This document shows, piece by piece, positions 12,758 to 38,726 of a stretch of DNA of 38,726 nt (position 1 is the stretch's first letter; each line of letters starts with the position of its first letter). Made by a program: the position numbers and the translations under genes. Source of the DNA: [Eubacterium] cellulosolvens LD2006. GTDB lineage: Bacteria; Bacillota; Clostridia; Lachnospirales; Lachnospiraceae. The stretch spans positions 211,278 to 250,003 of the forward strand of contig NZ_KK211309.1 in NCBI RefSeq assembly GCF_000621585.1. The letters run 5' to 3'. The notes under the pieces are model-generated. The model saw only the letters and a program-made list of their open reading frames with translations. It was not told where the DNA came from and searched no databases.

Positions 12758-13864
12758 ATGATAAAATTAAACGACTATCTGTACGACGGAAATACGATTT
12801 TTCAAATAATACAGAAGTATGCTCGTGATCTGGAACTGCACGGACGCAGGACAGGAAATGCAATCGATATAGACCACAGCAAGTTTCTGAGAAGTATTTC
12901 TGATTTATTGGAGCACAGCGATTTTCTTACATCACAGTCCGAGAGGATTCGTAATTTCTATATGGACATGGCAGTGGCATATCCGACACTGGCATTTACA
13001 TTTAAGGGCAGAATCAAATCACTGATTCGCGCGGAGGAGAAGTTCAACGGTTATATTGTTCAGTTCATCCATGATTACTACGTGATTAACAGGAAATTTC
13101 CGGAAGTTGAGGAATTACGGGAGTACCTGAAGAGATTTCATGATTTTATCGCGTACCGAATCGTCATATCCGTTCCGAAGTGTCATTTGAAGCCGGGAGA
13201 GGACAAGGATGAGGCGGATATCCGCTATCTCTATGAGATTGCCAATGAACTTCCGAAGTTTATGGAGGAGCACGGATTCAGCAAAGAGGTCGCCAAGCTC
13301 GGCGATCACTACCGCAATTACCGGAATACGCCTCGTTTGAAAGAGGATGTTCGAAAGTACTACAGAGACTTTGTCGAGAATCCGCAGGAATCGAATTATC
13401 AGGCTCTGCACATCGTATTCTTTGACAATGTGGCGCACTGTTATATAGAGATGCAGCTACGCACAAAGAAGATGGACGACAATGCGGAGATCGGAAAAGC
13501 GAACCACAGTGTCTATGAGAAACAGCAGAAGCTCGAGAGAGCCAGAAGAAGTCTGATTCCTGTGGGCGGAAGCGTGTATTTCGATGAGGCGTATGAGCGG
13601 GGGATGGAACTTCAGCATCTTGACCTTTCCGGTCTGGATGTGGATATGTTCGCCGCACTGGATAACCATCTGATCAACGACGGCTGCGGCCTTTACAAGA
13701 GCAGACTGGTGCTGCCGTATGAACATCTGTCCCGTCATCAGAGTGAAACCTACGCCGCGCTCGATAAAGCCGAAAAGATCGAAAAGATCGACAAGATCGA
13801 CAAGATCGTCCGGAAAACCGGCGTCGGAACCGGAGACTTCCGGGTGCTGACCGGAACCGTCTGA
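12758..13864 (+). CDS. RelA/SpoT-type (p)ppGpp synthetase-like protein
   Basis: A 368-residue protein with the alarmone synthetase core and no HD hydrolase, TGS or ACT domain, so it resembles the small synthetases. Motifs seen: G-R-I-K-S (Arg85, Lys87, Ser88) with Lys95 ten residues after Arg85, Asp129 in D-F-I-A-Y-R-I, N-Y-Q-A-L-H (Tyr214, His218), and E-M-Q-L-R-T (Glu231, Gln233, Arg235). Compared with classical Rel enzymes there are about 20 extra residues between Lys95 and Asp129. The predicted reaction is pyrophosphate transfer from ATP to GDP or GTP, but activity is inferred. The C-terminus has an odd charged run built from 9-bp DNA repeats encoding EKI/DKI. The start is ATG 12758, with a weak ribosome site after a structured leader. 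Confidence 0.78.
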   Translation: MIKLNDYLYDGNTIFQIIQKYARDLELHGRRTGNAIDIDHSKFLRSISDLLEHSDFLTSQSERIRNFYMDMAVAYPTLAFTFKGRIKSLIRAEEKFNGYIVQFIHDYYVINRKFPEVEELREYLKRFHDFIAYRIVISVPKCHLKPGEDKDEADIRYLYEIANELPKFMEEHGFSKEVAKLGDHYRNYRNTPRLKEDVRKYYRDFVENPQESNYQALHIVFFDNVAHCYIEMQLRTKKMDDNAEIGKANHSVYEKQQKLERARRSLIPVGGSVYFDEAYERGMELQHLDLSGLDVDMFAALDNHLINDGCGLYKSRLVLPYEHLSRHQSETYAALDKAEKIEKIDKIDKIVRKTGVGTGDFRVLTGTV

Positions 13865-21102: not shown

Positions 21103-21366
21103 ATGAGTTCTTTTGAATATATCAGCGAGCACTACGGCAATGTCTGCCGCAGATGCATCAACCGCATGTGCAACGTTCACCTGGTGCCGGATGACGTGAG
21201 ATATCAGCAGTATCCGTATGAGTGTGATCAGTGCGGAAAAATGGCGAACATCGTCACCGGCGTGCGCTTTTCCGGGAAGCTGAAACTCTTTGGGAAAAAG
21301 CTGACCGAGGAGCCGAACCGGGTGGAGAAAGTCGCCGACGAAATCAGCTGGTACGACATAGACTGA
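21103..21366 (+). CDS. Small Cys-rich protein, possible zinc ribbon
   Basis: An 87-residue protein with ribosome site GGGGAGG about 10 bases upstream. Cys15-x-x-Cys18 (plus Cys23) and Cys41-x-x-Cys44 could bind one zinc as a ribbon, followed by a basic segment and an acidic tail. It has no signal peptide or membrane segment, so it is cytoplasmic. The function is unknown. It lies 99 bases after the rhomboid gene with no visible terminator, so the two may be co-transcribed. Confidence 0.65.
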   Translation: MSSFEYISEHYGNVCRRCINRMCNVHLVPDDVRYQQYPYECDQCGKMANIVTGVRFSGKLKLFGKKLTEEPNRVEKVADEISWYDID

Positions 21367-21449
21367 CAGGAAATTTTTGTTACCAATAAAATATTTCAAA
21401 ATCTAACAAAAATTAGACGAAATGTGATTTTTGTGTGACTCCCCTCGTC

Positions 21450-21455
21450 TATAGT
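21450..21455 (+). promoter_or_regulatory. Possible -10 box for the ncRNA
   Basis: TATAGT at 21450-21455 follows a GTGTGACTCCCCTCGTC stretch; no good -35 box is visible at normal spacing. If used, the transcript would start about 40 bases before the closing stem of the structured RNA. Confidence 0.3.
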
Positions 21456-21499
21456 AAGGTCATGCAAGATGATTGCAGAACAAATTGTTAATACTCTTG

Positions 21500-21790
21500 T
21501 TACCTAATAATGGAACTAAATTGTATCTGGGGGGATAAAGTTTAGATCGTGATTATACATTGAGCTCTTGCCCGGGCACCCTGCTGAGTAGGCGCACAGG
21601 CAGAGGAGAAGTGTTCAATGGGAGTGAGTATTCCGGCCGGAAGCCGACCTGGTGGTCTGAGACCTGTCTGAACAGACAGCTTCACGGATCGCAGGAAAGG
21701 TGCAAAGGCCGGGAGTGAGTAGCAAAATTCATTAGGTAATCAGGTATGAGAAAAAGCCGGCACGAAGGAGAAGCGTGCCGGCTTTTCTCA
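21500..21790 (+). ncRNA. Structured noncoding RNA, raiA-like or 6S-like candidate
   Basis: The ends pair over long range: TTACCTAAT (21500-21508) with ATTAGGTAA (21731-21739). Inside, GCACC-CTGC (21576-21584) pairs with GCAG-(4 nt)-GGTGC (21691-21703) and CCCGG with CCGGG (21709-21713). Local hairpins include CTGTCTG/CAGACAG (21664-21679) and GGC-CGGAA-GCC. The word GGGAGTGAGTA occurs twice (about 21620 and 21711), placed symmetrically in the fold. No coding frame or ribosome site is present, and the next gene is 370 bases away behind a terminator, so it is not a cis leader. Size and form suggest a conserved RNA such as the raiA motif or 6S RNA. I cannot decide which without a covariance-model search. 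Confidence 0.6.
21752..21790 (+). terminator. Terminator of the ncRNA
   Basis: AAAAGCCGGCACG (21752-21764) pairs perfectly with CGTGCCGGCTTTT (21774-21786), followed by CTC. A separate hairpin, CTCATCCAGG/CCTGGATGAG (21787-21810), follows at once and leads into the dispersed repeat. Confidence 0.85.
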
Positions 21791-22025
21791 TCCAGGTAAA
21801 CCTGGATGAGATGCTCCGCAGGATGCGCAGCTCGCAGATGAGAAGATCGCTGACGCGATTCTGCTCACGCGCGCAAAGTCCGACAGCGCTCTCCCAGAGA
21901 GTACGTTTGTGGGCGAAGAAAACACGCTTGCGGACTTTGATCTTTGCGTAAGAGACGATGCCTCTTACATGAGAAAAGCCGCATAGATGCGCAGCTCGCT
22001 GACGCGATTCTGCTCGTGCGCGAGA
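21787..22025 (+). repeat. Dispersed repeat copy, interrupted
   Basis: The hairpin CTCATCCAGG-TAAA-CCTGGATGAG is followed by ATGCTCCGCAGGATGCGCAG and CTCGCAGATGAGAAGATCGC, the module also seen at 424-653 and 38613-38726. A second partial module with GATGCGCAGCTCGC and GCGATTCTGCTCGTG lies at about 21985-22022. Between them are CTTGCGGACTTTG and a stretch not found in the other copies. The leading hairpin differs in sequence from the other copies while the module is kept. Confidence 0.7.
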
Positions 22026-22047: not shown

Positions 22048-22076
22048 TTGAGAAAATTCCTGTATTATAATATAAT
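22048..22076 (+). promoter_or_regulatory. glmS promoter
   Basis: TTGAGA (22048-22053) and the perfect TATAAT (22071-22076) are exactly 17 bases apart, about 90 bases before the glmS start. The leader is too short for a glmS ribozyme, and I see no ribozyme core. Confidence 0.75.
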
Positions 22077-22166: not shown

Positions 22167-24035
22167 ATGTGTGGAATTGTAGGGTATGTGGGAGATAAAC
22201 AGGCGGCGCCGATCCTTCTGGACGGCCTGTCAAAATTGGAATACAGGGGATATGATTCAGCTGGTCTTGCCGTTCGAAACGACAGTGATAAATTCGAGGT
22301 CGTAAAGGCCAAGGGAAGACTGAAAGTACTCGCAAACAAAACGGATGACGGAAAGGCACTGTACGGCACCTGCGGAATCGGCCACACGCGCTGGGCGACG
22401 CACGGAGAGCCGTCGGAAATCAACGCCCATCCGCACACATCGGCTGCGGGAGAGATGGACGAAGACGCGGATGTTGTCGGCGTTCACAACGGAATCATCG
22501 AGAATTTCCAGGAAGTGAAAGAAAAACTGACCCGTCGCGGATACACGTTTTATTCGCAGACGGATACAGAGGTTCTGATCAAACTGGTGGATTATTATTA
22601 CAAGAAATACAACATGGGGCCGATCGACGCGCTCGCGAAGACGATCGTTCGTGTCCGCGGATCCTATGCGCTGGCGGTCATGTTCAGGGATTATCCGGGG
22701 GAAGTTTACGTCGCAAGAAAAGACAGCCCGATGATCATCGGCGTCAATGAGAATGAGTCATACATCGCCTCCGATGTACCGGCGATTCTGAAACACACCA
22801 GAAATGTCTACTACATCGGCAACCGTGAGATGGCAAAACTCTCCGGAGGAGAGGTGACTTTCTTCAACCTCGACGGAGACGAAATCGAGAAAGAACTTGT
22901 CGAGATCAAATGGGATGCGGAGGCTGCGGAAAAAGGCGGCTATGAGCATTTCATGATGAAAGAGATCCACGAGCAGCCAAAGGCCGTGAAGGATACACTG
23001 AACAGCTACATCAAGGCGGATGGAGACAGAAAGAGCATTGATCTTGCCGATGTCGGACTCTCAGAGGATGAGATCCGGGAGATCGAACAGATCTACATTG
23101 TGGCCTGCGGTTCCGCATGGCATGTCGGCATGGCGAGCCAGTATGTGATTGAAGACCTGGCGGAGGTTCCGGTGAGAGTTGAGCTTGCGTCTGAATTCCG
23201 ATACAGAAAACTTCCGGTAAATAAGAAGGGACTTGTCATTATTGTTTCCCAGTCGGGAGAGACGGCGGATTCCCTGGAGGCGCTCCGTCTCGCGAAACAG
23301 AACGGACTGAAGACGCTTGCCATCGTCAATGTTGTCGGATCTTCGATTGCCCGCGAGGCGGATCACGTGATGTACACACTCGCCGGACCGGAGATCGCGG
23401 TTGCGACGACAAAGGCCTACAGCACACAGCTTATCTGCGGCTACCTGCTGGCGGTACAGTTCGCGAAGACGAGAGGCCTTGTCGATGATGAAAAATACGC
23501 GTACTATATCGAGGAGCTGCTGGCTCTTCCGGAGAAGATTGAAAGAATCCTCAGTGACAAGGAGAGACTGCAGTGGTTCGCTGCCAAGTTCTCGAATGCA
23601 CACGATATCTTCTTCATCGGACGCGGCCTGGATTACGCGATTTCTCTCGAGGGAAGTCTCAAGATGAAGGAGATCTCCTATATTCACTCCGAGGCCTATG
23701 CGGCCGGAGAGCTGAAACACGGAACCATCAGTCTGATCGAGAACGGCACGCTTCTGATCGGCGTTCTGACACAGAAACAGCTGTATGAGAAGACGGTGAG
23801 CAACATGACCGAGTGCAAGAGCCGCGGAGCCTATCTGATGGGACTCACAACGTACGGTCATTATGAGATCGAGGATCACGCGGATTTCGTCGTATATATC
23901 CCGAAGGCGGACGAGCACTTCGCCGGCAGTCTGGCGGTTATTCCGCTTCAGCTGCTCGGATACTACACAAGTGTCGCAAAGGGTCTGGATGTGGATAAAC
24001 CTAGAAACCTCGCGAAGAGTGTAACGGTCGAGTAA
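22167..24035 (+). CDS. glmS: Glutamine-fructose-6-phosphate aminotransferase
   Basis: A 622-residue protein starting M-C-G-I-V-G-Y, which leaves Cys as the N-terminal nucleophile of the glutaminase domain. E-Y-R-G-Y-D-S-A-G, G-H-T-R-W-A-T-H-G and H-N-G-I-I-E-N-F follow. Two SIS domains (about residues 300-610) contain S-Q-S-G-E-T-A-D-S and the C-terminal K-S-V-T-V-E. It makes glucosamine-6-phosphate from fructose-6-phosphate and glutamine, the first committed step to UDP-GlcNAc for peptidoglycan. ATG 22167 is chosen because GGAGGG lies 8 bases upstream and family members begin exactly there; a longer frame from 22089 would block the Cys. It is monocistronic, between its own promoter and terminator. 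Confidence 0.96.
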   Translation: MCGIVGYVGDKQAAPILLDGLSKLEYRGYDSAGLAVRNDSDKFEVVKAKGRLKVLANKTDDGKALYGTCGIGHTRWATHGEPSEINAHPHTSAAGEMDEDADVVGVHNGIIENFQEVKEKLTRRGYTFYSQTDTEVLIKLVDYYYKKYNMGPIDALAKTIVRVRGSYALAVMFRDYPGEVYVARKDSPMIIGVNENESYIASDVPAILKHTRNVYYIGNREMAKLSGGEVTFFNLDGDEIEKELVEIKWDAEAAEKGGYEHFMMKEIHEQPKAVKDTLNSYIKADGDRKSIDLADVGLSEDEIREIEQIYIVACGSAWHVGMASQYVIEDLAEVPVRVELASEFRYRKLPVNKKGLVIIVSQSGETADSLEALRLAKQNGLKTLAIVNVVGSSIAREADHVMYTLAGPEIAVATTKAYSTQLICGYLLAVQFAKTRGLVDDEKYAYYIEELLALPEKIERILSDKERLQWFAAKFSNAHDIFFIGRGLDYAISLEGSLKMKEISYIHSEAYAAGELKHGTISLIENGTLLIGVLTQKQLYEKTVSNMTECKSRGAYLMGLTTYGHYEIEDHADFVVYIPKADEHFAGSLAVIPLQLLGYYTSVAKGLDVDKPRNLAKSVTVE

Positions 24036-38577: not shown

Positions 38578-38726
38578 GTGTTATGGAAATTCCTCCGGAA
38601 TTTCCATAACACAAAACGCTCCGCGGGATGTGCAGCTCGCAGATGAGAAGATCGCTTCGCGATTCTGCTCGCGCGCCTTTCGTCCGCGGCGCTCCACTCA
38701 GGAATGAGGGGCTGGAGGAGTCGAGG
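38578..38726 (+). repeat. Dispersed repeat copy at window end
   Basis: A perfect 16-bp stem, GTGTTATGGAAATTCC (38578-38593) with its complement (38597-38612) around TCC, is followed by AAAACGCTCCGCGGGATG and the module with CAGCTCGCAGATGAGAAG and GCGATTCTGCTCGCGC. It ends GAGTCGAGG, as does the copy at 538-653, and the window ends on that base. It is the cleanest copy of the hairpin. Confidence 0.85.

Follow-up and report, generated by a model that had tools for sequence, protein, structure and literature searches.

The 38,726-nucleotide stretch of [Eubacterium] cellulosolvens LD2006 analysed here (the window) very probably encodes a functional structured RNA on its plus strand, at 21500-21739, between the gene for an 87-aa protein (21103-21366) and glmS (22167-24035). 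The structure, its strand and the constraint on it are supported by comparison of two species. The best explanation, which we consider probable on balance, is a lineage-restricted, separately transcribed structured RNA that works in trans.

Locus and second copy

A rhomboid-family gene lies upstream of the gene for the 87-aa protein, which contains two CxxC pairs and has no Pfam or NCBIfam match. Of the 15 other genus genomes, one (G007) has a second copy of the RNA (81% identity by blastn), and the gene order rhomboid, 87-aa protein, RNA, glmS is common to both species. Between the two, the 87-aa proteins are 98% identical, the rhomboid proteins 73%, the GlmS proteins 96%, and a xylanase-like protein 95.5% over the 358 residues covered. 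Fourfold sites of glmS differ at 138 of 277 positions, so synonymous positions are heavily scrambled between the species, and the RNA is identical in 186 of 238 aligned gap-free columns. Elsewhere in the window, a 368-aa ORF (12758-13864) has a RelA/SpoT-type region (Pfam PF04607, 42.7 bits).

Predicted fold

The predicted fold of 21500-21739 has four helices meeting at a junction, and its two ends are joined by a perfect 9-bp stem, P1, in which TTACCTAAT (21500-21508) pairs with ATTAGGTAA (21731-21739). The sequence-only reading had described this long-range stem, and it is exact. Such a stem is uncommon by chance, as 5000 single-base shuffles of 21460-21750 yielded a perfect 9-bp Watson-Crick stem over 200 bases or more in just 44 cases. 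The several internal stems described with it agree with the folding energy: 21500-21742 has a minimum free energy (MFE) of -85.1 kcal/mol, compared with -69.2 on average for its shuffles (z -3.67), and z reaches -5.50 when the hairpin behind the RNA is included. The minus strand folds equally well relative to its own shuffles (z -4.08), so the strand was chosen by pair keeping and not by energy. In the longer folds of both species, P1 is extended downwards (ATAC and CT with AG and GTAT); these letters are invariant and therefore provide no covariation. Among the unpaired columns of the model, no pseudoknot of at least five contiguous conserved pairs was found. Features of the RNA and its flanks are listed in Table 1.

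Table 1. Predicted features of the candidate RNA and adjoining DNA (window coordinates; G007 is the second species).
Feature	Position	Strand	Basis or conservation
Possible promoter region, TATAGT (21450-21455) as putative -10, -35 unclear	21428-21456	+	Conserved block
Small hairpin TGCAA-GATGA-TTGCA, perhaps near the transcript 5' end	21463-21477	+	MFE of both species
P1 lower extension, 5' strand (ATAC and CT)	21491-21497	+	Pairs with 21742-21747, MFE of both species
P1, 5' strand, TTACCTAAT	21500-21508	+	Invariant in G007
P2 hairpin with G-rich loop, 13 pairs	21513-21548	+	MFE of both species; no pair varies
P3 arm, 8 + 6 + 7 pairs	21558-21620	+	1 two-sided and 7 one-sided changes, all pairs kept
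J3/4 joining segment with first GGGAGTGAGTA copy	21620-21630	+	21623-21632 identical at 9/10 in G007
P4 arm, 7 + 3 + 15 pairs	21632-21713	+	4 two-sided and 5 one-sided changes, all pairs kept
Second GGGAGTGAGTA copy	21711-21721	+	Not kept in G007
J4/1, P1 3' strand (21731-21739) and P1-extension 3' strand (21742-21747)	21722-21747	+	26/26 identical
Terminator-like hairpin, 13 bp, short T run	21752-21786	+	40/43 columns kept over 21748-21790
glmS promoter match (context, outside the RNA)	22048-22076	+	11/12 here; G007 L003:1829-1857 also 11/12

Conservation and pair keeping

The curated structure has 68 pairs in eight helices and was fitted with both copies in view, which favours it. A check of the stems for covariation had been proposed from the sequence; in the comparison of the two copies, all 68 pairs form in each, with 17 pairs differing, five of them on both sides. 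When the observed substitutions were re-dealt among positions with the same base, a mean of 54.7 pairs was kept and 68 was reached in none of 20,000 trials. Columns 59-215 alone kept 46 of 46 pairs (mean 36.4), again reached in 0 of 20,000 trials. The structure predicted from the window alone kept 73 of its 82 gap-free pairs in G007 (mean 65.9, reached by 80 of 20,000), and within columns 59-215 it kept 47 of 50 (mean 39.2, reached by 2 of 20,000). Separate MFE structures (83 pairs in the window, 84 in G007) have 49 pairs in common; 10 of the 83 window pairs are broken in G007, and 69 of the 84 G007 pairs form in the window while 15 break. Slid versions of the structure kept 30 to 44% of cells. 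The counting tool's own shuffle control, which is weak with two sequences, was reached by 12 of 500 shuffles.

Read as a minus-strand RNA, the curated structure leaves standard pairs at 58 of 68 positions in the window and 56 of 68 in G007; together with the G-U changes, this favours an RNA made from the plus strand. Neither P1 nor P2 differs between the two copies, so these helices lack covariation support of their own. Identity over the blocks runs from 20/37 at 21367-21403 through 49/57 in the upstream block (21404-21460) and 37/39 at 21461-21499 to 56/57 over the P1 5' strand, P2 and the following joint (21500-21556); P3 is identical at 47/67 positions, J3/4 at 9/10, P4 at 54/82, the tail of the second word (21715-21721) at 2/7, J4/1 with the P1 3' strand at 26/26 and the terminator hairpin at 40/43. 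The P2 loop, TGGGGGGA, is invariant. Hardly any change is seen in the core, made up of P1, P2 and the joints, while P3 and P4 on the outside vary in sequence without losing their pairs.

Selection on the structure is well supported by this constraint and by the compensatory changes between the two species. The conserved DNA block upstream (49/57) would fit a regulatory DNA element under constraint, or a decayed element with a chance fold, but pair keeping is strand-specific and accompanied by compensatory changes, and we regard an explanation other than an RNA gene as very improbable.

Coding potential and sequence motifs

Several other functions for the stretch were considered and rejected. 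An ATG with a Shine-Dalgarno-like word at 21618 would open a 17-aa frame, which has no counterpart in G007. A GTG frame has the same start in both species (21611, 35 aa; L003:1623, 40 aa), with a Shine-Dalgarno-like word in the window only; its first residues are similar, and the two frames then diverge through indels. Tiny frames at 21462-21510 are common to both species because the DNA there is nearly invariant, and a simple test for frames with a Shine-Dalgarno-like word kept in both species returned none. A CsrA sponge was likewise set aside, since GGA is not in excess: nine occurrences against a shuffle mean of 8.2 in the window (reached by 1305 of 3000 shuffles) and seven against 6.3 in G007 (1326 of 3000). 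The word GGGAGTGAGTA does occur twice, as the sequence-only reading noted (21620-21630 and 21711-21721), but the second copy is not kept in G007 (2/7, compared with 9/10 for the first), and its duplication was rejected as a functional motif.

A dispersed intergenic repeat that starts with GATGCGCAGCTCGC and continues ATCGCT-ACGCGATTCTGCTC lies at 439-452, 552-565, 21822-21835, 21986-21999 and 38627-38640. Its 14-base start has four exact occurrences in the window, one with one mismatch and one with two (chance mean 0.45), and G007 has a close copy upstream of the rhomboid gene (L003 ~241-360).

Transcript ends and relation to glmS

The conserved block TGTGACTCCCCTC.TCTATA (21434-21456) upstream of the RNA is single in the window at up to three mismatches. 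By eye, pairing of its TCCCC with the GGGGA in the P2 loop would be possible, provided the block is transcribed. A putative -10 element of the RNA promoter is TATAGT at 21450-21455, and G007 has a 9/12 promoter match, TTGTGA-16-TATAGT, in its upstream block. The promoter scan of the window called nothing at 21428-21456, directly before the RNA; its 10/12 match lies more to the 5' side, at 21363-21392, and is absent from G007. Both longer folds contain the P1 extension and the hairpin at 21463-21477, which suggests that the transcript may start upstream of 21490, perhaps near 21462.

At the other end, the hairpin at 21752-21786 is a perfect 13 bp with 40 of 43 columns kept, in agreement with the proposal that the RNA has a terminator of its own. 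Calling this terminator strong was an overstatement, since its T run, CTTTTCTC, is short and interrupted and a consensus terminator scan did not call the hairpin in either species.

The main rival to a separately transcribed RNA is a glmS leader (an orphan riboswitch or attenuator), in which the hairpin at 21752-21786 would be the expression platform and read-through would add to transcription from the glmS promoter. In both species glmS follows the RNA directly and in the same orientation, with a distance of just some 120 bases from the hairpin to the glmS start in G007, and an invariant junction core with a hairpin immediately after P1 resembles a riboswitch. Against this, both species have a glmS promoter match (TTGAGA-17-TATAAT, 11/12) between the hairpin and the start codon, and in the window about 250 extra bases with copies of the dispersed repeat, absent from G007, lie between hairpin and promoter. 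G007 does not preserve the alternative hairpin (21786-21811), part of which coincides with the terminator arm in the window. An RNA of such length is also long for a riboswitch. We therefore consider a glmS leader unlikely, and independence from glmS, favoured by the promoter matches and the extra bases, is likely. The sequence-only reading, which took the stretch for an independent structured RNA that is no gene's leader, is thus partly supported: the structure is well supported (68/68 pairs), and a separate glmS promoter match speaks for independence, but read-through into glmS is possible.

Comparison with known RNA families

An Rfam scan of the whole window gave no family at threshold except four tRNAs elsewhere, and ARAGORN likewise found four tRNAs and no tmRNA in the window. 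Over the RNA stretch, 12 Rfam matches up to E 10 were obtained, all weak, and 11 of them covered the terminator hairpin or the bases immediately after it. CcsR1, matched on the minus strand, scored highest (E 0.0025; 23.5 bits, cut-off 65.3), and the twelfth match, outside this area, was uxuA, also on the minus strand (21464-21544, 15.4 bits). The G007 stretch gave three matches up to E 10, all at E 3.3 or worse.

It had been suggested that the RNA could be raiA or a variant of 6S RNA, and searches with the Rfam models for raiA, 6S, SRP and RNase P had been proposed; none of these gave a match at 21500-21790 up to E 10. SRP RNA, RNase P RNA and tmRNA, whose models were presumably present in the Rfam library used, are absent from the matches up to E 10. 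6S (RF00013) is also absent, and the genome has a separate 6S match on another contig (G000:C5:57239-57420, 51 bits, cut-off 46.4) in a search that was positive in 5 of 14 controls. 6S RNA resembles the candidate in size and closed ends. It is a long rod with a central bubble, whereas the candidate is a multibranched junction.

raiA (RF03072) is absent from the matches up to E 10 in either copy. It also had no match in the genome of strain LD2006, in a search without a working positive control, and none in 150 genomes of the family, a count that says little about its distribution since the 14 controls were negative too. In the excerpts consulted of PMC11751092 and PMC11706538, raiA (ModT) RNA is described as a stand-alone RNA, 210 nt in one species, closed by P1 and with conserved unpaired nucleotides; it has helices P1 to P8, a three-way junction and two pseudoknots, and its usual neighbours are comFC (74%) or the raiA gene (66%). 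As far as these excerpts go, the candidate is alike in size, presumed stand-alone form, P1 closure and conserved unpaired nucleotides. It differs in secondary structure, with P2, P3 and P4 set on P1 in place of the three-way junction and two pseudoknots, and in its nearest genes, which are those for the rhomboid and 87-aa proteins and glmS rather than comFC or raiA.

Identity with raiA or 6S is not supported by these comparisons. A known large family (raiA, 6S, SRP or RNase P) that has diverged beyond recognition by Rfam would share the similar size, the end-to-end stem and the terminator-like hairpin, but the absence of all of these families from the matches up to E 10 in either copy, the separate 6S match and the raiA search of the genome (with its control failing) speak against it, and we judge this reading highly unlikely.

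The glmS ribozyme shares the position upstream of glmS, but RF00234 had no match in the window or in the G007 locus. The idea that the RNA replaces this ribozyme was rejected: among 15 glmS loci, including the two carriers and some with short flanks or partial glmS, one had a ribozyme match, and this lay on the opposite strand beyond the end of glmS. This match (L017:3439-3587, minus strand, 63.9 bits), just past the glmS 3' end, is oddly placed. By its description in an excerpt of PMC11109978, and not by sequence, the candidate can be likened to the smtA motif, a rare large noncoding RNA candidate that is unusually long for a riboswitch and whose function is open.

Distribution

The genus sample comprised 16 genomes, nine of them at least 90% complete and at most 5% contaminated. 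By blastn the RNA was found in 2 of these 16; in the family it matched 2 of 299 genomes, namely its own and one with a 34-base match inside a protein frame. The covariance model (R1) likewise found it in 2 of 16 genus genomes, and in 1 of 397 family and 1 of 392 order genomes, the single match being its own genome each time; the family and order searches used stricter filters and a loose first look, and diverged copies may therefore be missed.

A search of 18 loci by nhmmer gave just one match, of 3.1 bits. With filters off, the model gave 170 matches up to E 10 at 12 loci of weak relatives of the 87-aa protein, of which the best (L040:1293-1377, 13.8 bits, E 0.011) covers the P4 arm only, has a GC content of 0.71, scores 7.9 on the other strand and was judged a chance GC-rich hairpin. 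The same search of 12 of the 18 loci L008-L025 (the other six being glmS fragments or amidotransferase paralogues) gave 120 matches, the best of 10.3 bits. Pattern searches of viral contigs had no match for three patterns; the P4-tip pattern occurred in two viral contigs, where the model scored 8.9 bits for the tip and 4.0 bits for a second stretch. In genome contigs the pattern search returned two stretches, that of G007 and one from Neisseriaceae without a model match. None was found in the plasmids and phages searched. Among the papers listed in literature searches, none had a title or abstract opening that describes the locus, and a term search of the main text of two discovery papers (one is PMC11109978) gave no mention of glmS or rhomboid.

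The 87-aa protein is present in 2 of the 16 genus genomes and in 12 of 397 family genomes including its own, the other 11 being weakly similar. In other members of the genus the best glmS match does not exceed 73% identity, which suggests that the two carriers form a subclade of their own. By the searches made, the RNA is restricted to two species; it may be older than it appears and unrecognisable elsewhere.

This narrow range is usual for small RNAs (PMC11706538, in the part consulted), and a base-pairing small RNA would use exposed loops such as the G-rich P2 loop to pair with target mRNAs, in keeping with the invariance of P2 and TGGGGGGA. However, conservation covers the joining segments and P1 rather than one seed, and a seed carrier would not need so elaborate a fold, which makes this reading improbable.

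Proposed mechanism and significance

The favoured separately transcribed RNA would be noncoding, stand-alone and some 240 to 330 nt long, with transcription from the plus strand and a 3' end at the hairpin at 21752-21786. P1 would clamp both ends, with P2, P3 and P4 radiating from the four-way junction. Binding of the rigid core by a partner protein or a small ligand would fit the nearly invariant P1, P2 and joints and the drifting but paired P3 and P4; the RNA would then act in trans as a small ribonucleoprotein.

More tentatively, we suggest that it may be the first known member of a class of stand-alone RNAs with a four-way junction, missing from the catalogues and confined to one small lineage, that works in trans as a ribonucleoprotein, ligand binder or ribozyme. 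A new class had been raised from the sequence, and it is possible, with two members at present: no Rfam family reaches threshold, but just these two were found.

Few bacterial RNAs are both large and structured, and where the function of one has been solved, it has in several cases proved to be a basic one. The narrow range lowers the weight of the present example, which may serve as a regulator in one lineage. Where a lineage is represented by just one or two genomes, RNAs of this kind can escape cataloguing, and a well-folded RNA without an Rfam match, kept amid scrambled synonymous sites, is a concrete candidate for a large structured RNA.
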